DNA from: Amphiura filiformis
Lineage: Eukaryota > Echinodermata > Ophiuroidea > Amphilepidida > Amphiuridae
Length of the DNA: 64,000 bases
Direction of reading: 5' to 3'
NCBI RefSeq assembly: GCF_039555335.1
Contig: NC_092646.1
Coordinates: forward strand, 28,325,780 to 28,389,779
Under the pieces are notes generated by a model. The model did no database searches. It saw nothing but the letters and a program-made list of their open reading frames with translations, and was not told where the DNA came from. Below, piece by piece: positions 1,863 to 53,471 of this stretch (its first letter is position 1; the number at the start of each line of letters is the position of its first letter). Position numbers and translations under genes: made by a program.

Positions 1863-2440
1863 ACTTTACATATACAGTCTCTCTTTAAAAACCCGGTATA
1901 TGTATATGCATTTCATAAAAATGAGGCAAATGGATATTTTCCGTCTTTCCTCGAAATTGATATATTTACCCCCCCCCCCCCTCCAACCACCAAGAAAGCT
2001 GGCTCCACCCCTGTCTACAATGGTATACTTCCATATTCGCACCACAAAAATTGCGATTTTACTTTCATCATAATACAGTATTTAAAAGAAACAAGCCCAG
2101 CGCCATGAAGGCATCATCATGTCGATATATTTGAAATTGATCCGCGATATTTTAATAGCTCTCTAGCTCTGTCTAGTCTGAACCTGGCTCTAGTACGAGC
2201 GTATACATCGATTTCTACTCGTTTTCATCACGCTATGATTGAAGCTTTCATATAATGCCTGCGATGAGACCGAGATATACCTTTCTCGGATTAATATCCT
2301 CTCCTCATGACGGTAATATATGTTTCAAACCGTCTGACTTTTCTGGCTAAACTTTTAGATTAGCTTTGCATTTTCTTTTTGAATATTTACAGAAGCGCCT
2401 TCTTCACTTTCTATTTACTCCTATGTCTTGTTCTTCTTTC

Positions 2441-3180
2441 TCCTCCTCCTCCTCCTCCTCCTCCTCCTTCTTCTTCTTCTTCTCCTTCTTCTTCTTCTTC
2501 TTCTTCTTCTTCTTCATCTCCATCTCCATCTCCATCTCCATCTCCATCTCCATCTTCATCTTCATCTTCATCTCCATCTCCATCTCCATCTTCATCTTCA
2601 TCTTCATCTCCATCTCCATCTTCATCTTCATCTTCATCTCCATCTCCATCTCCATCTCCATCTTCATCTCCATCTCCATCTCCATCTCCATCTCCATCTT
2701 CATCTCCATCTTCATCTCCATCTCCATCTCCATCTTCATCTTCATCTCCATCTCCATCTCCACCTTCATCTTCATCTCCATCTCCATCTCCATCTCCATC
2801 TTCATCTCCATCTCCATCTTCATCTTCATCTCCATCTCCACCTTCATCTTCATCTCCATCTCCATCTTCATCTCCATCTCCATCTCCATCTTCATCTCCA
2901 TCTCCATCTTCATCTTCATCTCCATCTCCACCTTCATCTCCATCTTCATCTCCATCTCCATCTCCATCTTCATCTCCATCTCCATCTCCATCTTCATCTC
3001 CATCTCCACCTTCATCTTCATCTCCATCTCCATCTCCATCTTCATCTCCATCTCCATCTTCATCTTCATCTTCATCTCCATCTCCATCTTCATCTCCATC
3101 TTCATCTTCATCTTCATCTTCATCATCATCTTTATCATCATTTCTTCCTCTTCTTCTTCTTTTTCTTCTTGCTCTCATCT
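2441..3180. repeat. (TCC/TTC)n then (CATCTC/CATCTT)n microsatellite
   Basis: Roughly 70 bp of TCC/TTC trinucleotides lead into about 620 bp of the hexamer CATCTC alternating irregularly with CATCTT and a few CACCTT, then back to TTC-rich sequence. The hexamer contains no stop codon in five of the six frames, so long low-complexity ORFs (Ser-Pro, Leu-His, Ile-Ser, Asp-Glu-Gly, Met-Glu-Lys types) appear. They are artefacts of the repeat. Confidence 0.97.
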
Positions 3181-15386: not shown

Positions 15387-16430
15387 TTTGAATAAGTGAT
15401 AGATAATGGTTTCATAAATGGCATATATTGCCATGCATCTTCAAGTTATATGCTATCTTCAGTAGACAGTTATCCAGGAGCTTAAAAATTATAATTATAG
15501 GGGTGCAAAAATGCTATCTGCAGTAGACAGCTATCCAGGAAGCTTAAAATGATAATTATACGGGTGCAAAAATGATATCTTCCGTAGACAGCTATCCAGG
15601 AAGCTTAAAATGATAATTATACGGGTGCAAAAATGATATCTTCCGTAGACAGCTATCCAGAAAGCTTAAAATGATAATTATACGGGTGCAAAAATGATAT
15701 CTTCAGTAGACAGCTATCCAGAAAGCTTGAAATAAGTGATAGATAATGGTTCATAAATGGGATATATTGCCATGCATCTTCAGCAAAAAAAAAAAAAAAA
15801 TCGGAAGTTGTATGTATCGTCGTCAATAGACAGTTATCCAGGAAGCTTAAAATGATAATTGAAGGGGTGCAAAATGCTGTCTTTATGAAGCTTAAAATAA
15901 TAATAGTAGAGGTGTAAAAATGCTGTCTTCAGTAGACAACTATCCATAAAGCTTAAATGATAACTGAATGGGTGTATAAATGCTACCTTCAGTATAGACA
16001 CCTATCCAGGAAGCTTAAAATGATAATTGTATATGTGTGTATAAATGCTGTCTTCAGTAGACAGCTATCAATGAAGCTTAAAACATAATTGTAGGGGTTC
16101 AAAAATGCTATCTTCAGTAGACAGCTATCCAGGAAGCTTAAAATGCTAATTCAAGGGATGCAAAATGCTGTCTTCAGTAGACAGCTATCAATGAAGCTTA
16201 AAATAATAATTTTGTAGTGGTATAAAAATGCTATCGTCAGTTGACAGCTATCCAGGAAGCTTAATATGATAACAGTAGGGGTTAAAAATGCTGTATTCAG
16301 TAGATATCTATCCATCATGTCCAAGAAGCTGAAATGATAATTGTAGGGGTGTAAAAATGCTGTCTTCAGTAGACAGCTATCCATGAACCAACCAAAGCAT
16401 GATACGTGTTTGATATCTTCAGTAGAATGA
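15387..16430 (+). repeat. Hairpin-word tandem array 2, about 61-bp unit
   Basis: About 13 units of the type 'TGCTGTCTTCAGTAGACAGC' plus 'TATCCAGGAAGCTTAAAATG', then 'ataattgtaggggtg'. The stem of the hairpin appears as GCTGTCT/AGACAGC in several units and GCTATCT/AGACAGC in others. A 60-bp non-unit segment ('aagtgatagataatgg', 'gccatgcatcttca') is present twice, at 15392 and 15731, so a block of about 337 bp was duplicated. A 17-20 bp A-tract lies at 15784-15800. Confidence 0.9.
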
Positions 16431-16479
16431 ACCTTCAAACAAAAATGGCGTGGATTATATGCAATATCTGTTGAAATGC

Positions 16480-17870
16480 CATAACTTGTATAATACGCCT
16501 GTCGTGTGCTGCTATCTTTAATAGCCACCAGGAACATTATAATATATAGTAATTTTATGGGTGCATGTAGAGATACATATCCAAGAACTATGGAATAATA
16601 ATTGCATGTGTGTCATACAATGCATCTTGAGTAGACAGGTAGCCAGGAACCTTAAAACAATAATCGTATGGACGTCATGTAATGTTATCTTCAGTAGATA
16701 GCTAGGCAGGACCCTTAGAATAATTATTGTACGACAGGTGTCATGCAATGCTACCTTCAGTAGATAGCTAGCAAGAAACCTTATAATAATAATCATATGG
16801 TTGCCATGCAATGTTATCTTCAGTGGATAGCTAGCCAAGAACCTTAAAATAATAATTGCATGGGTGTCGTACAATGCTATCTTCAGTAGATAGCTAGCCA
16901 GAAATCTTATAATAATAATTGCGTGGGTGTCGTACAATGCTATCTTCAGTAGATAGCTAGCCAAAAACCTTATAAACTAAATAATTGTATGGTGTCATGC
17001 AATATGCTATCTTCAGTGGATAGCTAGCCAGAAACATTATAAAAATAATTGTATGGGTGTCATGCAATGCTATCTTCAGTAGATAGCTAGCCACAAATCT
17101 TGTAATAATAATTGTATGTGTGTCATGCAATGCTATCTTCAGTAGATAGCTAGTCAGAAACCTTATAATAATAATTAAATGGGTGTCGTGCAATGCTATC
17201 TTTAGTAGATAGCTAACCAGAAACCTTATGATAATAATTGCACGGGTGTCATGCAATGCTATCTTCAGTAGATAGCTAGCCAAAACGCTTGTAATAATAA
17301 TTGCATGGGTGTCATGCAATGCTATCTTCAGTGGATAGCTAGCCAAGAACATTATAATAATAATTCTATGGGTGTCATGCAATGCTATCTTCAGTGGATA
17401 GCTAGCCAAGAACATTATAATAATAATTCTATGGGTGTCATGCAATGCTATCTTCAGTGGATAGCTAGCCAAGAACATTATAATAATAATTCTATGGGTG
17501 TCATGCAATGCTATCTTCAGTGGATAGCTAGCCAAGAACATTATAATAATAATTCTATGGGTGTCATGCAATGCTATCTTCAGTGGATAGCTAGCCAAGA
17601 ACATTATAATAATAATTCTATGGGTGTCATGCAATGCTATCTTCAGTGGATAGCTAGCCAAGAACATTATAATAATAATTCTATGGGTGTCATGCAATGC
17701 TATCTTCAGTGGATAGCTAGCCAGATGCCTTATAAAAATAATTAATAATTTTACAGGTGTCATGCATGCTATCTTCAGTAGATAGCTAGCCAGAAACCTA
17801 TTAAAATAATTGTATAAGTGTCATGCAATATATCTTCAGTAGATAGCCAACCAGGAACCCAAGAATAATG
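16480..17870 (+). repeat. Hairpin-word tandem array 3, about 63-bp unit
   Basis: About 22 units of 'GCTATCTTCAGTAGATAGC', 'TAGCCAGAAACCTTATAATA' and 'attgtatgggtgtcatgcaat'. Units at 17305-17720 are almost identical to one another, use GGATAGC on the 3' side of the stem (a G-T wobble) and are exactly 63 bp. The frame therefore stays open on both strands, giving repetitive ORFs that I do not accept as coding. The spacing and spacer sequence parallel array 2. Confidence 0.95.
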
Positions 17871-20962: not shown

Positions 20963-28468
<7,506 letters not shown>

Positions 28469-28499
28469 CTGTGATGACAAAAGACAAAACAGAAGAGAG

Positions 28500-28925
28500 A
28501 TTACAAAACACGTTATTTGAGAAAGATATATATATTTATATGCTAGTGCTAGAAATTACTTTTTGGAGAGCAAGGTTAACTATTCAAAATGAGAAAAAAA
28601 AATGTATTTTAATATAAATTATGTAAGTGCTTCTCTATGATTTGTACATATTTTTGAACTATGGCAAGTCGTAAAGCAATAACAGTATAAACAAAACCTT
28701 AAATGTTAGAGTCATCTTAAGTTAAATTTAACTTGTTTTGTGCGCCGAAGTTTATTTAGCTATATACAATTATTATTAGTGTACCGTATATATAATCAAG
28801 GGGACCCCGGAACAGGAAAGTCAACATTGCTGCCGACTTTGCTTTTTAGTAGGCTATTGTATGTTACGTACGTATGAAAATACATACACTTGCAAATCTG
28901 TAAGTTTGGAACCTAACAGTAGGAG
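28500..28925. other. No gene seen (tubulin gene 1 intron 1)
   Basis: AT-rich. 28797-28850 ('ggggaccccggaacaggaaa' then 'ctgccgactttg') resembles 33078-33120, a possible shared repeat. Confidence 0.45.
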
Positions 28926-28929
28926 TTAA

Positions 28930-29265
28930 TCTCTTAATGTAAAATAGTGAATCAAAAAGGTGAGTATTTATGCACTCCAAAATGAGTGAAATTCACTAAA
29001 AAAGAGTGAAATTTGCACTCCAAATTAAAAGAGTGAGTTTCACTATAAAAAAAAAAGCAAACTTTTTATCTTCAAAAAGGCATTTATAGGACCACTATAC
29101 ATAAAGAGTTGTCCCTTTTATCATACATTAAAAATGAATATTTCACTCTTGTGGAGTTCAAGTGAAATTCAATTTTTTGGAGTGAATATTTCACTCTTTT
29201 TTAAGTGCATAATTGCTTACTAATTTGGTTCACTCTGTTATATTAAGAGAGTGCAAAATCCGATA
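28930..29265. mobile_element. GAGTGAAA-rich MITE-like repeat, copy 2
   Basis: Many GAGTGAAA/TTTCACTC words in alternating orientation, ending 'ttatattaagagagtgc' like the copy at 1190-1430. No coding potential. Confidence 0.5.
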
Positions 29266-29480
29266 CAAAACTTTTATGCAATACTACGAAAGACCTGAAC
29301 CGATTCAAATGCGCAATATCTCTCCGTGGCTTTTCTTTTCTTTCAAAAGCAGCAAAATCACCAAAATCGTGAATTGATCTAAGGACTATTTTAATTGATT
29401 GAATTTGACCATAAAAAGCAGACCATTAATCTTAATCATGTTAATCATCACACTGTTGTCTACATTATTGGTGACGAATT

Positions 29481-29673
29481 GGGCTATTCCAGTTGAAAAC
29501 CATACACCCCTATAGAAGACATGACCTTAATCTTTCACACAGGGAGTGTGAATTTCAAATGGGATTACTAGTACCTGAATGGATGACTCCATTTGAAATC
29601 TACGCACACCCCCTATGTCGGGAGATTAAGGCCACGGCTTCCATAAGGTGGCGAATTTCAACTGGAATTGCCC
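29481..29673. mobile_element. GGGCTATTCC palindromic MITE, copy
   Basis: Begins GGGCTATTCCAGTTGAAAAC and ends 'ttcaactggaattgccc'. Both flanks carry ATT ('gaatt' before, 'attgc' after), a possible short target duplication. It lies in intron 1 of tubulin gene 1. Confidence 0.85.
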
Positions 29674-29924
29674 ATTGCTTGTTATGAGAAAATCGCACCC
29701 ATCCTTCACCTAGATCCCCTACTCTTTAATAATGTAACAAAACAGGGTTCGCCAAATTGCAAAATTAGGGTAGCCTAAATGGTTCAAAATTCAAATAAGT
29801 ATAGCGATGCACTTACAAACCATAATTGCCCACTTTTGCTGCATATTTAACATAACAAATGTAAGAAAGCTTAAGCACCCCAATAAATTGCTTTAATGGA
29901 CGTAATTGACCACTGACCACAAGG

Positions 29925-30120
29925 CACTAGGATCCACAACATGCCCATCTATCAGGGCACAGTTATTTAACCCCAATACATTTGCACATTCATTGAATGA
30001 CCTTTGATAATTTGGGTATACACGAACTCATACTCTGCAACTTGAGGTCAATTTCGTACTGTGATTGTTTAGTTGAGGTTATTGAACTACACCATTGGGA
30101 TGAGGCCATTGTTGCCCAGT
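29925..30120 (+). mobile_element. Dispersed repeat family F, copy 2
   Basis: Starts CACTAGGATCCACAACATG, then 'ttaaccccaatacatttgc', and ends near 'gaggccattgttgccc'. With copy 3 it preserves the uninterrupted end that is split by an insertion in copy 5. Confidence 0.8.
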
Positions 30121-30359
30121 GAGAACGATATTTATCAAGCCCCTTGTAAGGTTTTCTTTGCCCTCTAAACAGCCTCCTAGCATTTATTGAAGACCTCTCG
30201 AGTTCCTGAAGCTATTTTTCCTTTCCGTATAAATATGCGCATTATAGAAAGGGTCATTGCATCGTTAGTGGGTAAAGAACATTTCCTCGCATAGAAAGCT
30301 ATACTATAGAGGCATACTGGTATTATCTTGAAACCCTTTTTTACCAGCATTTGTTTTAA

Positions 30360-30707
30360 GGGGTACTACACCCCTGGCCAATTTTGTGCCTATTTTTGCA
30401 TTTTTCTCAAAAATTATAGCACATTGGTGACAAGTAAGATATGCATATTATAGGGGCAAGGACTACAACTACTGTACTGAAAATTCAGCAACTCAAAGCA
30501 AGTAGTTATTGATTTATTTATCAAATATTGGTTTTCCCTCATTTTGACTGTAACTCCGCAACTGTTGTCTGTGCTGAAATAAAATTTCCAGTGCAGTAGT
30601 TGTTGTCCTTGCCCCTATAATATACATATCTTACCTGTCCCCAATGCGCTATAAATTTTGAGAAAATACAAAAATAGGCAAAAAATTGGGCAGGGTGTAG
30701 TACCCCC
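30360..30707. mobile_element. TTAA-flanked foldback MITE family C
   Basis: 348 bp between TTAA sites at 30356-30359 and 30708-30711. The ends are GGGGTACTACACCC and its complement GGGTGTAGTACCCCC. Long arms mirror each other ('tataggggcaaggactacaa' type words) around about 30530. No ORF of note. Confidence 0.88.
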
Positions 30708-30744
30708 TTAAATAAAACGTAACTTTGGTCAAATACAACTTTAT

Positions 30745-30835
30745 AGTTAAAACAGAGAGAGGGGAGAGGGGGGCGGGGGATGGAGTGAGAAAGAGAGAGA
30801 GAGAGGAAAGGGGAGAGGAGTGAGGGTGCAAACAA
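30745..30835. repeat. GA-rich simple sequence
   Basis: Purine tract of GAGAG and GGGGA words. Minus-strand ORFs across it are artefacts. Confidence 0.8.
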
Positions 30836-30884
30836 GTAAAACACAATCCAAACTTATTTTGGCACGTGAATATTAGTAACCCAG

Positions 30885-31010
30885 AAACGTTTAAATATCG
30901 GGTTAGGGTGTAAAAACGTTTTAATAACACTCATAAAACATTTTTGAAAACGTCATGTAAAACAATGTGACAGAATATTATTTAATTGTTGACAAAATAT
31001 TTTTTGTTCA
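30885..31010. repeat. Dispersed repeat with TTTAAATATCGGGTTA, copy 2
   Basis: Same word order as 10019-10190: 'gtttaaatatcgggttag', 'acgttttaataaca', 'ttttgaaaacgtca'. Confidence 0.65.
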
Positions 31011-31910
31011 TTTTTTTGTTCTGTATTGTTTTGTTTTGTTTTGTTTTTTGTTTTGTTGTTTGTTTGTTCTGTGGTTTGTTTGACATTGCTCATGTTTGTT
31101 TGTTTTTCATCGCATTCCTTACTTTATTTTCCAAATCATTTCACGGCTTAATATCAGTTTTCCCAACTGCTTGTTTTGGTTTGGTTTGTTTGTTTTTAAA
31201 TTTATATGTTTGTAATTGTTTAGTGTTTTGTTTTGTTTATTTGTTTATTTCTTTATTTCTTTATTATTTTTATTCATGTTTTGTGCGTTGTTTTTGAAAT
31301 CATTTCAAGACTAAATTTCACGAAGTGCCTGAAATTTAGTAAGGCCTAAAAAACTTACGACCGACCCAAAAATCTGGGGGGAAAAATCGTGTTTTTTTTT
31401 AATTCTTTTTAGTTGATTTTCATATACTTGGTATATACAAAATTGGCACAAAAAGTTTGCCTGCTTGTAATTTGTACCAAATAGCTCCGATATGTTCAAA
31501 AAGGGTCTGACAAACCTTTCAAATCATTGTGTACTATAATATTTGTGGTGAACTTGTGTTTTTTAATATTGTACATGGTAAAATAGTTTTAAAAAAGTTA
31601 ACCGACCCTGACTTTGGAGCTTTAAGGGCAATTCAAACTTTCCTCTTTTAGGCCTTAGGTCTATCGTCATCGTTTGTTTTTTTAAAGATCTACAAACAAA
31701 TAACACTGACTGTACTGAGGCACACCCCCTTGATATTATTTTTAATAATCTAACATAATCCCAACCTTGACCATAGCTCTGTACATTGTGTATAACATTC
31801 ATTGTATTTCAAATTTAATTAAACAGTAATAAGCAAAATCAATAAGACGAAGTCACTAAAACAGATGCTATATTGATTTATTTAATTAAAATATCTTCAT
31901 AAAAAAATTG
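31011..31910. other. No gene seen; TTTTG-rich tract
   Basis: 31005-31275 is rich in TTTTG/GTTTG words and yields a Phe-rich ORF without family resemblance. The remainder is unassigned. Confidence 0.6.
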
Positions 31911-31922
31911 TTCATATTGCTA

Positions 31923-32449
31923 CTCCCCATTCCAGAAAAATACGGAACTAATTTTTTGGAATTAAAAAAATATTATCCTGTTTTGCCAAATGAAACATGG
32001 CTAAATCCTAATCCTTTAGTTAGTCCTAACTGACAATAAAAGTCAAGTTTTAATATTTTTGCAATTCGAGGTAAAATGGTCTGAAAACATGCAATTTTGC
32101 ATGTTTTCTTACAACTGCAGTGCCAAAATTGTAAGACTTGGCACAAGTCTAAGCATTCAAAATCTTGAGTATAGGATTAAGCTCATAATTTAAATATTAT
32201 ATGTTAGTTTTCCTAATTGGTTAATGAAAAAGATTGGAAAATGTGTTTTCTAAAAATTAGAATGCAGAACTTGAAATTAGTCTTTGTCTTAGTCTTTGGC
32301 CCTTATTTCCAAAAATAGACCAAATAGACTTTTATTGCCGGTTAGGACTACCTAAAGAATAAGGAATAAGTTATGTTTCATTTGGCACGACCGGATAATA
32401 TTTTTTTAATCCAAAAAAAATTAGTTCTGTATTTTTCTGGAATGGGGAG
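31923..32449. mobile_element. TA-flanked foldback element
   Basis: 527 bp, flanked by TA at 31921-31922 and 32450-32451. The ends are CTCCCCATTCCAGAAAAATA and its mirror. Arms extend inward with 'gaactaattttttggaatta', 'ccaaatgaaacat' and 'agtcctaac' complements. TA duplications point to a Tc1/mariner-type enzyme acting in trans. Confidence 0.85.
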
Positions 32450-32454
32450 TATGC

Positions 32455-33612
32455 CTATATTTGTTTGGTATAAGTCAAGTACCGTATGTCATGATTAACT
32501 CTCTCAGAGCAGTACCTTTTGTCATTCAGTGTTTGTTATAGGTAAAAAAACCGAATATTTAATATATCGAATGTGAATATTAATTAGCAAAGTGAAACAC
32601 TAAAAAAAACTTCTGAAAATTTATGTGATTTTTTTGTTGAATGATTAGCATTAGTATCTTGTTTATTTTGCCTTGAGAAGAAGATACGGATGCAAACAAA
32701 CCAGATATTTTAAAAGCTACTAAAATAGATAAAAAGAATGTTGTTGGACTCTTAAAATTTGAAAAAATAAAACACATTTTTAGCTACGATTTTGCTTCTT
32801 TTTTTTTTTTGTTTTTTTTTTTTTGCATTTAAGTTTTTGACACATTCTTACAAAAAAAAAAAAAAAGAATTGGCAAAATTATAATGGCTGTAAAATTGAC
32901 TTCAAATAAATTTCCATGTTCTGTAAATTAAGACCCAAAAAGTGAGACAAAAATGCTCAAGCTAGTATGAATGTGAATTTCAAAGAAAGAACATTTAATA
33001 ATTTCCCCAAAATTGAAATCGCGGCGTCAGCTTAAACCAAATTCGCCAAGTTTATTCGGCCTCGATTATTATACTAAGGGAACCCCGTACTGGAAAGTAT
33101 ACGCTACTGCTGACTTTGTGCACAGAAATACATTGAATACGCTATTACTAAAATCCACGGGCGTATGTGTGGCGTATGGAAGGAGGCCGAGGGTGTATAT
33201 AGTCTGTCATGCCTTGACGTAAAAATATCCATTATCATACGAATGGATAAGAAGGGCTGCTTAAAAAAGTTGCTTAACCAATGACAAATTTCAAAAAAGT
33301 CGGCTCACATTGTTTTACTTGACGGTGCTTATATAAATTAAATGTTGCCACTTTTTCTTGTTTCTCATAATACTATTGACTTAATCAACATGTCAACTTA
33401 ATGATATTAAAAATATAGTGGACCACAAAAAAGATTTCACAATGCAACTTTAGTAAGTCTACCCTCCACATACAAGCGCAGTATACCGTTTCAGATGTTG
33501 CATTTTTACTCGAGAAGCAGGTGTTTTTTATCATGTTCCTGAAATGCAATATCTACAAGTAAATAACTTATTTAGCAGATACTGGTTCATATTGTGTTCT
33601 GCTTAATTTTAT
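32455..33612. other. No gene seen; poly-T/poly-A tracts
   Basis: T-tract at 32800-32824 and A-tract at 32853-32866. No supported gene. Confidence 0.55.
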
Positions 33613-33616
33613 TTAA

Positions 33617-33795
33617 GGGCTTCGGATAGCGACGTTTTCACTTATTTATTGTGGGATATTAGAGCACGTCAGACATATCGAATAGCATTTTAAAAACGAG
33701 GAATGTCCTTCTGATATCAAATAATTTTGATATTTTGAAATTAGCGTTGTAATACACATTTTATGGCAAATGATTAAAAATTGATGTTCCCACAA
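33617..33795 (+). mobile_element. TTAA MITE family A, partial
   Basis: TTAA at 33613-33616, then GGGCTTCGG and the family words 'ggatattagagcacgtcaga' and 'aatgtccttctgatatcaaa'. Only about 180 bp of one arm remains. Confidence 0.75.
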
Positions 33796-33873
33796 AAATA
33801 CTGCGCACACGTTGCTATCCAATTCCTTAAGAAATATTTTTAATCAATCGTCTCTTCTAAAGAAAATTGCAAT

Positions 33874-34303
33874 ATGTGACGTGTCATGTCAAAAGGAGAC
33901 ACTTTTGGGCAGAATTTTAAATGGAGAAATAGCCACAAATCTGCCCAGGGGTGATTTTTTCACAATTTGGGTTTGTTGCGAATTTGTGATGTTATTAATG
34001 TTAAAAATATTGTCTGATAGTTTCAGACCGGAATACAACTGGCATCTTGTATTGTTTTAGACAATTTTCAAGGTAATTCCTACTCTCAACATTGTCAATT
34101 ATATTTTTAAAAGACCAATATCTCAATTTCCAATTTTATAATACCATAACTTACGAACACAATATCTTCGCTTAGGAATGTCCGATTTCATTGGGAAAAC
34201 GGCGTTGTGGAGCAAAATATCTCTATATTTAAGATACGTAAAAACCTCAAAATTGATAACCTGCCCAAAAGTGTCTCCTTTTGACATGACGCGTCACACA
34301 TAT
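33874..34303. mobile_element. TIR element, about 430 bp
   Basis: About 40-bp terminal inverted repeats: TGTGACGTGTCATGTCAAAA on the left, and the complement of 'ttttgacatgacgcgtcaca' on the right, continuing through 'ggagacacttttgggcag'. The short ORF inside has no family resemblance. Confidence 0.8.
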
Positions 34304-34355
34304 GCTAGTATATAAAGCAAATACTGCCCTTTACTTGCGAAGGCAAACTTGAAAT

Positions 34356-34543
34356 GGGCTATTCCAGTTGAAATCCATACACCCCCTATGGAAGACATGA
34401 CCTTAATCTCCCACACAGGGGGTGTGAATTTCAAATAGGATTACCTGAATGGGTGACTCCATTTGAATCTACACCCCCTGTATGGGAGATTGACGAGGTC
34501 ATATCTTCCACAGGGGGTGTATGGATTTGAACTGGAATAGCCC
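34356..34543. mobile_element. GGGCTATTCC palindromic MITE beside tubulin gene 1 exon 1
   Basis: Perfectly bounded copy, GGGCTATTCC to GGAATAGCCC, 188 bp. Its edge lies 17 bp beyond the putative gene 1 exon 1 donor (34566-34561), so a transcript would carry a long hairpin just inside intron 1. Confidence 0.92.
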
Positions 34544-34566
34544 GATAGTTTAACTCTCAAACTTAC

Positions 34567-34569
34567 CAT
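34567..34569 (-). CDS. TUBA: Probable ATG-only exon 1 of tubulin gene 1
   Basis: The minus strand reads CCAATATG|gtaagt. Family knowledge: alpha-tubulin genes frequently have an intron right after the start codon, and exon 2 here begins at codon 2 (Arg) with an acceptor. Phase 0 on both sides agrees. A TATA box lies 156-164 nt upstream. It would make intron 1 about 6.1 kb. This is an inference; transcript data would settle it. Confidence 0.5.
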
Positions 34570-34724
34570 ATTGGCAGTAGCTTTGGTACTTCTCGATAAA
34601 TATTTCAAAATTAGCACAGCAAACTTCTGGTCCTTTTGCAGTAGTTCTCCTCAGTCCGTAGAGCTACGATGTGCGAACGGATAAGGTAAGTTCACGGTAT
34701 GAAATCAATTTCAATATATCACCT

Positions 34725-34733
34725 CCTTTTATA
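34725..34733 (-). promoter_or_regulatory. TATA box candidate for tubulin gene 1
   Basis: TATAAAAGG on the minus strand, upstream of the candidate ATG exon. Initiation about 30 nt downstream would give a 5' UTR of roughly 130 nt. This is a consensus match in a plausible position, nothing more. Confidence 0.45.
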
Positions 34734-34739
34734 TCAACT

Positions 34740-35300
34740 AATATTAATCGATATATAAGATTAATTTGTAAAAAACAAAACCGCGTTTGGTTACTATGCC
34801 AATATCAATATTTTCTAGATATTCGTTAATAAAATGATATTAATGCAAACTTATATATACATATATTTACAATCCAGCTTGATTCACCCTCTTTTTGTTT
34901 TTAGTTTGTTTATAACTAAACGTAATGCGTCTACAAGGGCATTACAAAGAGGTATTAATATTGAAATGTTCATATTTATAATTATTAAAAGTATAATTGA
35001 AATTAAGAATATTACTTCTAGAAACATATTATTTTTTAATTAATTTGTCGATCGAATTGAATTAACACCTTACTTCGGTTTTATGATTCTACCAGTAACA
35101 ATGGCAACGCCAGAACAATAGAAATATTGATAATAGATATTCATCACCGATTATAATCATTATTTTATTCAGCTTTTAGTGGTTATATTATAACTATATT
35201 TTGGCATGAAAATTCACGTAGAAATAATTGGGGGAATTTCTTGTAAATTACGCAAAGATGCGACAACGTATAGTTTTTCCTAATCTTGGCAATCAACAGT
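34740..35300. other. No gene seen
   Basis: AT-rich sequence upstream of the putative tubulin gene 1 promoter. No supported feature. Confidence 0.5.
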
Positions 35301-35304
35301 AAAA

Positions 35305-35653
35305 TTCACAAATCTAACGATATGTATAATTTAAAGTGTATGTAGCTCTGAGGAAAAGCCGTTTTTTTCATATGAAAATTTTGACCTTTCGTATTCACAT
35401 TTTTTCCCAAAAAGACCTAAATTTTTTAAATTTTTAAAAAAAAAAGGATATCTTTAATACGAAAAGTCAAAATTTTCAATTGATCGTCGGCCTTTTCTCA
35501 CAGCTACATAATAGATCTACATATCATTAGATTTATAAATTTTACTTCGAGGACTGTTAAATGTCAAAAATATCCATTTTTAATAACTTGCCATAAAATT
35601 TGTATCATATCGCGAATTTCATAAAATCAAAAACCGTTGCTATATCCGAGCCC
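35305..35653. mobile_element. TTAA MITE family A, one-arm-truncated copy
   Basis: Contains the palindrome centre ('aaaaagacctaaattttt') and one whole arm ending 'ccgagccc' followed by TTGA. The other arm is shortened. Family words 'cgaaaagtcaaaattttcaa' and 'gaggactgttaaatgtcaaa' are present. Confidence 0.8.
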
Positions 35654-35699
35654 TTGATCCTCTGAATAAAAATTGCGCATGCATCCAAACACTTTAACA

Positions 35700-35786
35700 C
35701 ATCCCATTTGAAATTCACACTCCCTGTGTGGGAGATTAAGGTCATGTCTCCCATAGGGGGTGTATGGATTTCAACTGGAATAGCCC
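35700..35786. mobile_element. GGGCTATTCC palindromic MITE, half copy
   Basis: One arm, 'catttgaaattcacactccc' to GGAATAGCCC. Confidence 0.8.
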
Positions 35787-35870
35787 AAATCGAGAAGTCA
35801 CCTGATGAAGAAGATCGTGCTTCTCCATCAGAAAGCAAGCTCAAATATCACGCTGATCTAAAAAATCACT

Positions 35871-36056
35871 GGGCTATTCCAGTTGAAATCCATACAACCC
35901 CTCTGGAAGGTATGACCTTAATCATCTACATATGGGGTGTAGATTTCAAATGGAGTCATCCATTCAGGTAGCCCCATTTGAAATCCACCCTCCCTGTGTG
36001 GAAGATTAAGGTCATGTCTTCCACAGGGGGTGTATGGATTTCAACTGGAACAGCCC
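35871..36056. mobile_element. GGGCTATTCC palindromic MITE, full copy
   Basis: GGGCTATTCCAGTTGAAATC to 'ttcaactggaacagccc', 186 bp. It lies 84 bp from the half copy at 35700-35786. Confidence 0.9.
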
Positions 36057-36422
36057 GTTGCCTGTGTATGATATTGGATAAGTGCGCAGGTGGGTTTAGC
36101 ATTCTTTCAGATTTGCAATAGGATACTATATATACCATTTTAGAAGTAGATCATGATTTTTTTCCCTTCAAATATGATAGAATTAACTGCGTGTTTAAAC
36201 AAAACTAAGTCAAACGTTTTATTGTGTCTTAAAATTAATACGCGGCACAATTTCGTAAAACTTATTCCGTATTCGAAATTTAAGGGACTAGGGCAAAACG
36301 CCAAGAAGAAAACGCAGCTGAATTGCACGGATAATTTCAGCAAAGAACCAAAAACGTAGCGTTGGTCGTAACAGTAAAACGCACGTAACAACGTTTGACT
36401 AATATTACTGGTCCTCATAATC

Positions 36423-36642
36423 TTCCTTACAAGGAAATGATGCTTCCTTAAAAGGAAACGATGCTACCTTAAAAGGAACCGATGCTTCCTTAAAAGGAAA
36501 CGATGCTTCCTTAAAAGGAAACGATGCTTCCTTAAAAGGAAACGATGCTTCCTTAAAAGGAAACGATGCTTCCTTAAAAGGAAACGATGCTTCCTTAAAA
36601 GGAAACGATGCTTCCTTAAAAGGAAGCGATACTTCCTTAAAA
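36423..36642. repeat. 21-bp minisatellite carrying nine perfect CArG boxes
   Basis: Eleven units of CTTCCTTAAAAGGAAACGATG. Units 2-10 each contain CCTTAAAAGG, which matches the serum-response-factor (MADS-box) consensus CC(A/T)6GG, at 36446, 36467, 36488, 36509, 36530, 36551, 36572, 36593 and 36614. Units 1 (CCTTACAAGG) and 11 (CCTTAAAATG) are off-consensus. The 21-bp period equals about two helical turns, so sites would face the same side of the DNA. It lies about 1.7-1.9 kb upstream of the putative tubulin gene 1 TATA box and 1.8 kb past the gene 2 stop. The minus-strand ORF (SFPFKEA repeats) is an artefact of 21 being divisible by 3. Regulatory function is inference. Confidence 0.97.
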
Positions 36643-36871
36643 TGAGACATTGTTTTTAAAAGCAATTAAGGGCACACCTTGTACAATATATATAAAATAT
36701 AATAATTTCAGACAACACACATATTTATATGACCTTTTTCAGCTCTACACTATTTTATTTCGTTGATCAGTTAGCTCAACATTTTCTCTATTTTTAAAAA
36801 TTAATTATAAATACATAAACACATGTTTAATGAGATGTTTATTATATTGCACATAATCTTCCTACAGTGTT

Positions 36872-36958
36872 TAATGGGTCATTCCACTTGAAATCCACAC
36901 CTCCTGTGGAAGACATAATCTTAATCTTCCACAGGAGTGTAGATCTCAAATGGTGCCC
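36872..36958. mobile_element. GGGCTATTCC palindromic MITE, short fragment
   Basis: 'gggtcattccacttgaaatc', 'cctgtggaagacata' and the mirror 'cttccacagg' show a shortened palindrome of about 85 bp. Confidence 0.7.
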
Positions 36959-36959
36959 A

Positions 36960-37370
36960 ATAACAAAATGATTATTATGATACTTAAGAAGTCAATTTGA
37001 AGTATTAACGTTAGCAAAAATACAATATGGATGGCTCTATTACGCAAAATAGTCATTCTATATAAGAATGTTCATGCATTATGTGGCCTGTTACAGTTGG
37101 GAGGTGGGACAATACTTGAGGCTGTATAATTATTGCTGCGGTGGGTGTGTTTCTTGCGGTCACTCTATGTAGAAACACAAGTAGAAACCCCTGCGTAGAA
37201 ACACATCAGAATTTACTGAGGTGTTCAAGTTCTAGACATTAACAATTGTTGCTATGCTCGTTTTTTGATCGTAATTAAATATCTTTGTTATTTTGTTTGT
37301 TCTTGTGTTGTTCTTTTGTTGGTGTTATTGTTCTGAGAGACTTTGTATGTGTATGAATGATGTGATGTTA
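36960..37370. other. No gene seen
   Basis: Nothing supported. 'gtagaaac' words repeat at 37168-37205. Confidence 0.5.
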
Positions 37371-37374
37371 GGTA

Positions 37375-37640
37375 TTGCGCAATGGGGTGATGGGTGTTGC
37401 GCAATGGGGTGATGAACGTGATGATGAGGATGGTGATGATGTGTGATAGTGGTGGTGGTTGCGGTAGTGGTGGTGGTGGTTGTTGTTGTTGTTGTTAATG
37501 TTGTTGTTGTTGTTGTTGTTGTTGTTGTGGTGGTGGTGGTGGTGGTGGTGGTGGTGGGGTGTAGTAGTAGTGGTGTTGATGATGATTTTGATGTTGATGG
37601 TGATGGTGAGTGTACTGATGATGTGAAATTGTGGCTGTGC
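37375..37640. repeat. (GTG/GTT/GAT)n microsatellite
   Basis: GTG- and GTT-rich trinucleotide tract with flanking GATG words. The long ORFs (poly-Val on the plus strand, His/Asn-rich on the minus) follow from the repeat. Confidence 0.95.
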
Positions 37641-37850
37641 TATTGATGCTGATGGTTTAGTGCTAAAAATGTCATGTGATGTCGGTGATGGTGCGAGGTA
37701 CATGGTGTCTGATGGAACGTGTGATTGATTTGTAAGCAAGTGAGACCGAAATGCACCACAGTGATTTGCACGTTTATTTGTATTCGTGTGCAAGTTTGTT
37801 TCTTTGTTCGTTTGTAAACATGATATTTTTTTGTACCTAAGAGCTTATGG

Positions 37851-37856
37851 TTTATT
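37851..37856 (-). terminator. Possible distal poly(A) signal of tubulin gene 2
   Basis: AATAAA on the minus strand, about 555 nt past the gene 2 stop. I saw no canonical hexamer closer, so the gene may use this one or a variant such as AATATA near 38190. Confidence 0.25.
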
Positions 37857-38410
37857 AAAGAAAACATTTTAGATAGATCGGAGGTAGATGATAAACTAAG
37901 TGTCAGACAATTTTAGCAAGTGAAATCTATAATTCTGATTACAAAAAATAAGAAAATTTTCTGGTAGTTTTGTTTAATAACTAGCATTAAGCATATTATA
38001 GGGAGATATGTATGGAGTTATGATTCCCTATTAGTGACAATATAATAAGACACCCTTACATCTGGCAGGGAATCATTTAAATTTGGCTGAAATTTACCAG
38101 AAAACTGAACAATGTCATGAAGTAATGATCTAGTGGTGAGACATTGACGCAAACGTGATCTGTAGTTACCCAAAACTTCTATCCTCGTTTGTTATATTCT
38201 GTATAGCAGTACCTTTAGATATCAACAGAATTCTAATTTTAAAGAGTATTGGCAAATTGGAGTTCAAAGAGTGAAAAAGATATTATGTTTCCTGTGCTAT
38301 TCTGTTGCAATACCTAAAAGAGATGGGTTGAAGCTAAAACTTGCTAGAAAGATACGATTGAAAGAAGTAATTGCTGTATCACTGAGACTAATAGTTGCTG
38401 TCTTTATGTG

Positions 38411-42003
<3,593 letters not shown>

Positions 42004-46859: not shown

Positions 46860-47380
46860 GTTCTTTAAAATTGTCTCTGTCTAAGCTTAGAAGCGGCAAC
46901 GTCGTGTCTGAGGTGCATTAATTTATTTGAGGCACGGAACTGAACTTGTAACTGTAACTATATGAGGAGGTTTGGTTAAGTTTAAAGAAACTGTTATTTT
47001 CACGAGTACTTGCCACATATATTAGAGCTAGCATCTTAACACATTTTTGTAGATTTAGATTTTTAAACTTATCAACATATTTCATTTAATTGTATTACGT
47101 TCCACAAAGTCTTTAAAAGGAATCCAACTTGTATCATCATCTACGGTATACCATCTTTCTCAATATTTTTCTCTATCAATACGCTGATATTTTTCGGTAC
47201 AATTAAATAACCTTACCATGTAAAGCATTCGGCCTGAAATAGGTTTCGTGTGAATAAGCACAAAAGTGTTATTGACATTAAACATAATTATAATATCTTG
47301 TATTTTATTCTGCAATGCTGTTTTTTCCGAATCACATCAGGCGCAAATTATTTATACTCGTCATCAAAGTGATACTCATT
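46860..47380. other. No gene seen
   Basis: AT-rich sequence, nothing supported. Confidence 0.5.
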
Positions 47381-49074: not shown

Positions 49075-49445
49075 ACTGGACCATCTTCCTTTAAAGAATA
49101 AGATTGATTCTTTATTATTATGTAGGTATATGCGCAGAGAAATGGCAAAGGATGTTTTATCTTTAAATAACGGTAGCCAGACACAGTGTGACGAAAGTTG
49201 AAGGCCCTTGTGAATTAAGCTTTTCTTTGCATTTTAAATTAATGGCTGAGGTCCCGTGTCACACCTTTGAGTTTAGGTAACACCAAGGCACTAAGCAGGG
49301 GATTCCTTCATGAATTTTGAAATGAAAGGCGAATGAACTACAGGAGCTTCTTGAACTTCATTCTCAGATGATGTGCGCCTCGATTTTTTGTGAAGTTAGC
49401 CTACTATATTTAGGGGTTTCCCATAAACACTTTTCAAAGCACTAA
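49075..49445. other. No gene seen
   Basis: Nothing supported. Confidence 0.5.
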
Positions 49446-52438: not shown

Positions 52439-52678
52439 TGGGCTTTTGGGTTGGGGTCACAATTTCTTCTTTGCTATAGTTTGAAAACCCAGTGAACTTC
52501 TATTATTTTTACTTCTCATCGTCGTCCAATTTGAACCAAATAATTAATGTAGAGTTACATAGCTGAAACCACTTTGTCGCTCGATGCCACAAAAGGCGCA
52601 AATTATTAATTAGTACTGTTAACTTTAAAATCGTTTAACACAACCGTTACAAATTATTAATGCCTTTATCGTTTATCA

Positions 52679-53471
52679 CTCTTTATGATACCACTCTTAT
52701 TTGTAGCAGCAGAGTAGAGCTGATTGATCTTTTGAAGCGCATCAAAGAGGCCAGCGAAGAAAAACACCTTCTCCTGAACACAAAGAAGACAAAAATAATG
52801 GTTGTAGACAGAGAGCGCGGGAAAAGTGATGAGTTTGTGATAGATGGACAGCAGATTGAGGAGGTGAAGCAATTTGAATATCTGGGTTCAATGATTAACA
52901 ACAGTGGTGACAGCACAACTGAAATTAAGAGAAGACTGGCTATTGCAAGGACAACTGTGCAGGGCATGTCAAGCATATGGAAAAGCAGAGGCCTATCCAT
53001 TGACCTCAAGGTACGCCTATACTTCGTGCAACTGTGTTTTCCATTGCCACTTATGGATGCGAGTCTTGGGCTATGACCAAGAATGATAGGAAAAGAGTAG
53101 ATGCTTTTGAGATGTGGTGTTACAGGAGGCTTCTACGAGTGACATGGAAAGACAGGAGAACAAATTCCTGGATCCTCGACAAGATTGGTACAAGTCTAAC
53201 CATCAGAAGCGGCATAATGGAGAGAAAGCTGAAGTACTTTGGCCATATTGTCAGGAAACATGGAGGTGTAGAAAAACAGATTTTGCAAGGGGCTATGGAA
53301 GGCAAACGAGGAAGAGGACGTCCACCAACATCTTGGACTAATGACGTGAAGCTGGTTTCTAACCAGGGAATGCAAGGTGCAACGCACTTGGCATCAGATC
53401 GAGTGAGATGGCGTACTCTTGTGAAGACCACAGCAGCGCTACACAGCGCCACCTGACACAGAGAGAGAGAG
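52679..53471 (+). pseudogene. 5'-truncated RTE-like LINE, reverse transcriptase C-terminus
   Basis: Encodes the C-terminal part of a non-LTR reverse transcriptase: 'LKLNTKKT'-type thumb (LLLNTKKTKIMVV), QFEYLGSMINNSG, then after a frameshift YGCESWAMTKNDRKRVDAFE, RRLLRVTWKDRRTN and KLKYFGHIVRKHGG. This arrangement is typical of RTE/BovB-like elements (from memory). A 2-nt insertion near 53013 breaks the frame, and the catalytic YADD appears reduced or lost ('LYDTTLIC'). The 3' end is a GA-repeat. ATCGTTTATCA occurs at 52668-52678 and 53472-53482, a plausible 11-bp target duplication. Endonuclease and most of the polymerase are absent; it is dead. Confidence 0.88.

Follow-up and report, generated by a model that had tools for sequence, protein, structure and literature searches.

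Predicted CArG boxes within a natural tandem repeat are known from D4Z4 of human 4q. Excerpts of the D4Z4 report (PMC2719609) describe a 3.3-kb unit with two predicted CArG boxes, promoter contacts of the repeat that include FRG1 and the tubulin gene TUBB4q, and a repressive state in myoblasts, in which YY1 and Ezh2 are bound. MORC3-repressed enhancers, such as the IFNB1 element IFNB1-MRE (PMC13373173), are minisatellites with homotypic motif clusters. According to excerpts of that report, their units measure 20-192 bp and their motifs are SPI (PU.1), AP-1, and SP/KLF; the natural tandem repeat of the IFNB1 element holds 45 PU.1 motifs and acts as a strong enhancer. The terms "SRF" and "CArG" are absent from the main text of PMC13373173. 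In the synthetic promoter BC-STAR-PROM, excerpts of PMC5024686 describe CArG-bearing 84-bp units placed in tandem beside a minimal promoter, and such promoters respond to actin/tubulin drugs. Among the matches listed from one open-access library, titles and abstract starts describe no short CArG-built minisatellite, D4Z4 being the nearest, and no literature match was found there for the letters of the unit studied here or of the other repeats around it.

In this study, we analyzed a stretch of 64 kb, referred to as the window, in which a 21-bp minisatellite carrying CArG boxes lies between two alpha-tubulin genes. Intron-bearing tubulin genes and numerous dispersed repeats suggest that the window is of animal origin. 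Like minisatellites and VNTRs, the array has a 21-bp tandem unit in about eleven copies, with an identical centre and diverged ends, and no feature that was compared sets it apart from them. It shares with D4Z4 a natural tandem origin and a CArG box in the unit, the promoter contacts being those of D4Z4 itself, and differs from it in having a 21-bp rather than a 3.3-kb unit. D4Z4 is the nearest natural precedent, and by analogy it would point to YY1 repression as much as to SRF activation. The array also resembles the MORC3-repressed enhancers, since 21 bp falls within their reported range and a homotypic motif cluster inside a minisatellite was found here as well; unlike them, it holds 9 CArG words instead of 45 PU.1 motifs. 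BC-STAR-PROM likewise has a CArG-bearing unit in tandem, but this array is natural, its units have 21 bp, and it would lie 1.7 kb from the candidate promoter. In the unit, the AP-1, SP1, and KLF patterns of our motif panel had no match and the generic ETS pattern did. The word AAAAGGAA, which we take to be SPI-like, occurs nine times in the array, and GAGGAAGT does not occur in the window. The SRF/TCF serum response element combines a CArG box with GGAA letters near it, as the array does. However, both GGAA and TTCC share bases with the CArG box in the unit rather than flanking it, and the unit has no other GGAA or TTCC and thus no separate ETS site beside the box. The initial annotation had named GGAA as an ETS core. 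Because GGAA shares two Gs with the CArG box, an ETS protein could presumably only compete with SRF and not sit beside it.

Tandem Repeats Finder reported one array at 36422-36642, with a period of 21, 10.5 copies, 96% matches, and the unit CTTCCTTAAAAGGAAACGATG. The layout was as follows.

36422-36652, no strand: minisatellite of eleven 21-bp units in register, unit CTTCCTTAAAAGGAAACGATG (Tandem Repeats Finder limits 36422-36642)
36446-36623, no strand: nine perfect CArG words CCTTAAAAGG at a spacing of 21 bp (word count)
36425-36434, no strand: CCTTACAAGG, in-register word one base from CArG (unit layout)
36635-36644, no strand: CCTTAAAATG, in-register word one base from CArG (unit layout)

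With head-to-tail units within about 10-100 bp and many copies, this array is an ordinary minisatellite. All nine occurrences of CCTTAAAAGG in the window lie within it, the first starting at 36446, the last at 36614, and each 21 bp after the one before. The consensus unit was matched exactly by unit 2 and units 4-9, and the six central units, 4-9, show no difference at any of the 21 positions, whether in the core or in the flanks. Units 1, 3, and 10 depart from the consensus at two positions each and unit 11 at four, after which the register is lost. The initial annotation had described nine consecutive CArG words exactly 21 bp apart, and both the word count and the register layout agree with this. 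The words are also perfect matches to CC(A/T)6GG in nine copies, as claimed, and their spacing is exact across all nine, in keeping with the proposed two helical turns. Its symmetrical TTCC..GGAA frame stood for eight of the nine CArG units, which carry the full TTCCTTAAAAGGAA frame, and failed in unit 3, which has TACC instead. Similarly, the end units are one base off within the decamer, as stated, but over the whole unit they are two (unit 1) and four (unit 11) off.

Dinucleotide shuffles of the window predict 0.17 occurrences of CCTTAAAAGG, and nine were reached in 0 of 100 shuffles. This excess does not represent nine independent events, because the words are copies of one unit. Outside the array, the window holds 5 further CC(A/T)6GG words against 6.6 expected from whole-window shuffles, and thus shows no excess there. 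The rest of the window contains no close copy of the unit, with 16/21 at 49085 as the top ungapped match. Any word inside a repeat takes on the look of a designed cluster, and the number of copies does not count as independent evidence.

The array lies between two tubulin genes, whose arrangement is listed below.

20963-28477, minus strand: alpha-tubulin gene A, coding exons at about 20963-21958, 22221-22382, and 28243-28477 (frames, similarity to gene B, Pfam tubulin domains)
38411-41922, minus strand: alpha-tubulin gene B, coding exons at about 38411-39415, 39899-40060, and 41688-41922 (frames, similarity between genes A and B, Pfam, alignment to solved structures)
34569-34733, minus strand: best candidate for the 5' end of gene A, with TATAAAAGG at 34733 and ATG|GTAAGT, a putative Met-only first exon, at 34569

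Pfam tubulin domains were found in exon pieces of both genes. The long exon of gene B, the only gene searched in this way, aligned best with the alpha-tubulin chains of solved structures, and the matching exon of gene A is 82% identical to it at the DNA level. The genes are in tandem, head to tail, on the minus strand, and the array lies 1.77 kb past the stop codon of gene B (gene end 38411). The domains and alignments bear out the earlier statement that tubulin genes lie on either side. AATAAA words occur on the minus strand at 37856 and 37778, with two more adjoining the array at 36843 and 36759, which leaves more than one possible 3' end for the gene B transcript. The second coding exon of gene A starts near 28477. 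In animal alpha-tubulin genes, the first coding exon commonly consists of the Met codon alone. The pattern ATGGT[AG]A[GT], which would miss a first exon with another splice donor, had a single occurrence on the minus strand of 28481-38400, at 34569. Six TATA[AT]A words lie in the 500 bases upstream of 34569, TATAAAAGG at 34733 among them. From these positions, the array would lie upstream of gene A, at a distance of 1.69 kb from the TATA candidate and 1.85 kb from the candidate start codon. The earlier claim that it lies less than 2 kb upstream of the likely promoter therefore holds at about 1.7 kb for the best candidate, if the exon at 34569 is right. Gene B has three first-exon candidates of this form, at 47219, 54206, and 62334.

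We then compared changes in the 10-bp CArG core with those in the rest of the unit. The eleven units contain ten substitutions, 2 in the core and 8 in the flank (P 0.074 in a one-sided binomial test and 0.106 in a Fisher test). With unit 11 left out, 1 of 6 fell in the core (P 0.13 and 0.22), and without both end units, 0 of 4 (P 0.075 and 0.12). When changes were placed at random, some circular window of 10 columns was as clean, with two or fewer changes, in 53% of placements. The bias runs toward core constraint, yet it falls short of significance and is too weak to count. In the identical units 4-9, flanks and core are equally uniform, which is the pattern that recent homogenisation gives.

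These results suggest that the array very probably arose when one 21-bp unit expanded by slippage or unequal exchange and was then homogenised, leaving an ordinary minisatellite. A single 21-bp stretch may by chance have held the dyad TTCCTT-AA-AAGGAA and hence the word CC(A/T)6GG. It would have been amplified through replication slippage or unequal exchange, and the copies would then have been homogenised, presumably without selection, with the most diverged units left at the ends of the array. The perfection of the CArG words would reflect the youth of the copies, and their phasing the 21-bp length of the unit. In open chromatin, SRF may contact individual copies, but a regulatory role need not be assumed.

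We examined how often an amplified unit would hold a CArG box. In the array-masked window, 101 of 55178 real 21-mers (0.18%) would give a perfect CArG array if amplified, and the figure was 0.41% for 46-bp and 0.59% for 62-bp units. Arrays with at least 5 copies of 10-100 bp units number four in the window, or five counting the T-rich tract at 31000-31081. With several arrays in one window, many CArG arrays would be expected genome-wide, as an extrapolation from this window. Of 9 array units, hand-chosen and some with only two copies, 7 held at least one pattern of a panel of 40 transcription-factor patterns. Random 21-mers held one in 1296 of 4000 cases, or in 530 of 4000 for the 34 longer patterns. 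Spotting one afterwards is therefore unsurprising. A search of genome_contigs, covering 84,980 prokaryote species, with a triple-decamer pattern gave one match, a bacterial one. This match, an array in an Oscillospiraceae MAG (L001, 4401-4517), has three perfect copies of CCTTAAAAGG that are again 21 bp apart, next to decayed units on one side, and is an independent instance of this decamer in tandem. To our knowledge, SRF is not expected in bacteria. The exact triple-decamer arrangement is rare in this prokaryote collection, and a two-unit pattern search of viral_contigs gave 0 matches.

The inverted repeat TTCCTT-AA-AAGGAA is present in the unit, and arms of at least 6 occur in about 5% of the 21-mers of the window. 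CC(A/T)6GG is itself a dyad. Among 21-mers with a dyad (arms of at least 6, spacer of at most 4), 19 of 2785 held a CArG box, compared with 82 of 52393 without one. CArG boxes are thus about four times commoner in dyad 21-mers, so slippage-prone dyads and CArG boxes tend to co-occur. Dyads with arms of at least 6 were found in 4 of 9 array units, a weak proportion since two of those arrays look related, and the largest array of the window, the 46-bp array, has none. The dyad as a driver of expansion is therefore a guess and suggestive only, because about 5% of 21-mers equal it and the largest array lacks it. The single strand of the array folded better than 200 of 200 of its own shuffles (z -6.9), in part as a product of repetition. 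The neighbouring 63-bp array likewise folded better than all of its shuffles (z -5.1), and the 46-bp array gave a modest z -2.1.

The initial annotation had proposed a natural homotypic enhancer or, alternatively, chance amplification of one unit. As an enhancer of gene A, the array would bind SRF (MRTF) dimers on one face of the helix about 1.7 kb from the promoter, or would be a latent element silenced by chromatin. This is very unlikely, although nine perfect CArG words fit the consensus in multiple copies and the distances to a plausible TATA word and Met exon are 1.69 and 1.85 kb. The responses of the synthetic CArG promoters, the strength of the IFNB1 repeat, and the D4Z4 contacts described above are consistent with it. 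ChIP in mouse jejunum, in the published excerpts, places SRF on a region of Dmpk intron 1 holding CCTTAAAAGG. However, in the excerpts CCTTTTAAGG, the same word on the other strand, falls at Lcn2 within an amplicon negative for SRF; the Gadd45g amplicon is SRF-positive and has a predicted site on each side, one of which is this word. The word alone is thus insufficient for SRF binding. SRF could bind single copies of the array, as predicted from the Dmpk site. Twelve of 27 places in a review of actin/tubulin regulation include one that ties CArG to actin promoters, none that ties it to tubulin promoters, and one cited title linking SRF-MRTF to tubulin acetylation; the literature covered also includes PMC12868001, PMC5289827, PMC4789231, and PMC10178880. 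Nothing in the letters themselves indicates that the array controls a gene, and there is a small chance that it has a weak or latent regulatory role. SRF bends DNA by about 70 degrees. At this angle, in-phase bends at 21-bp intervals would complete a circle within about five fully occupied sites, so that only partial occupancy seems possible. If the array is regulatory, it would be a natural case of an SRF enhancer built from one site, joining actin-sensing transcription to a tubulin gene. It is very improbable that slippage built an SRF enhancer that puts an alpha-tubulin gene under actin-sensing SRF-MRTF, possibly latent and silenced like the MORC3-repressed and D4Z4 repeats; slippage would then have raised one CArG site to nine phased copies and tied microtubule supply to the state of actin. 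The lack of significant core sparing, the identity of units 4-9 throughout, the 0.18% of 21-mers that suffice, and the bacterial parallel speak against the enhancer proposal, as does the overlap of GGAA with the CArG box, and we prefer its chance alternative.

That the array is a coding exon encoding a seven-residue protein repeat is extremely unlikely. The consensus unit is open in four of its six frames. Two of them span the whole array; the one on the plus strand would encode SLKGNDA repeats, and the one on the minus strand, which includes an ATG, FPFKEAS repeats. Each of the remaining two open frames meets one stop near the left end, and with 21 divisible by 3, several open frames are expected by chance. 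Most of the ten changes are non-synonymous, 8, 8, 9, and 9 of 10 in the four open frames, and show no sign of constraint on a protein, and we rejected the protein-coding repeat on these grounds. A structural element, in which curvature of phased A-tracts or a hairpin would position nucleosomes or separate the tubulin genes, is very unlikely. It would account for AAAA at every two turns and for the strong single-strand folding, but the same features follow from any AT-rich 21-bp tandem unit. No Rfam family reached its gathering score within the window, and ARAGORN, run with the bacterial code, found no tRNA in it.

About 80 bp long, a dispersed foldback repeat containing CTTCCACA..GGGG and TTTCAAATGG is present at 34350-36060, 36872-36955, and many other places. 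Its copies flank the CArG array and the candidate first exon of gene A, and it gave 52 overlapping profile hits on both strands at E < 0.001 in the window. An origin of the array from this flanking repeat was rejected, since a profile made from 17 family copies gave E = 35 and 0.3 bits at the array start, unlike the 52 of 73 listed hits at E < 0.001. An 18-bp stretch at 36418, a query chosen post hoc, matched the family copy at 35991 at 15 of 18 positions; 15/18 matches occurred by chance at a mean of 0.1 in 20 random Markov sequences of 128 kb. The 46-bp satellite at 22837-27808, with about 109 copies and 95% matches, lies in an intron of gene A; two patterns of the panel, forkhead and AGGTCA, match its unit. 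Three neighbouring arrays at 15450-17847 have 60-63-bp units and a common TCTTCAGTAGA and look related, and in two of the three the unit includes a hairpin whose arms measure 7 bp. A long (TCTCCA)n tract at 2426-3170 has several open frames. At 52639-53076, we observed a reverse-transcriptase-like open frame with a weak RVT_1 match below the Pfam cut-off.
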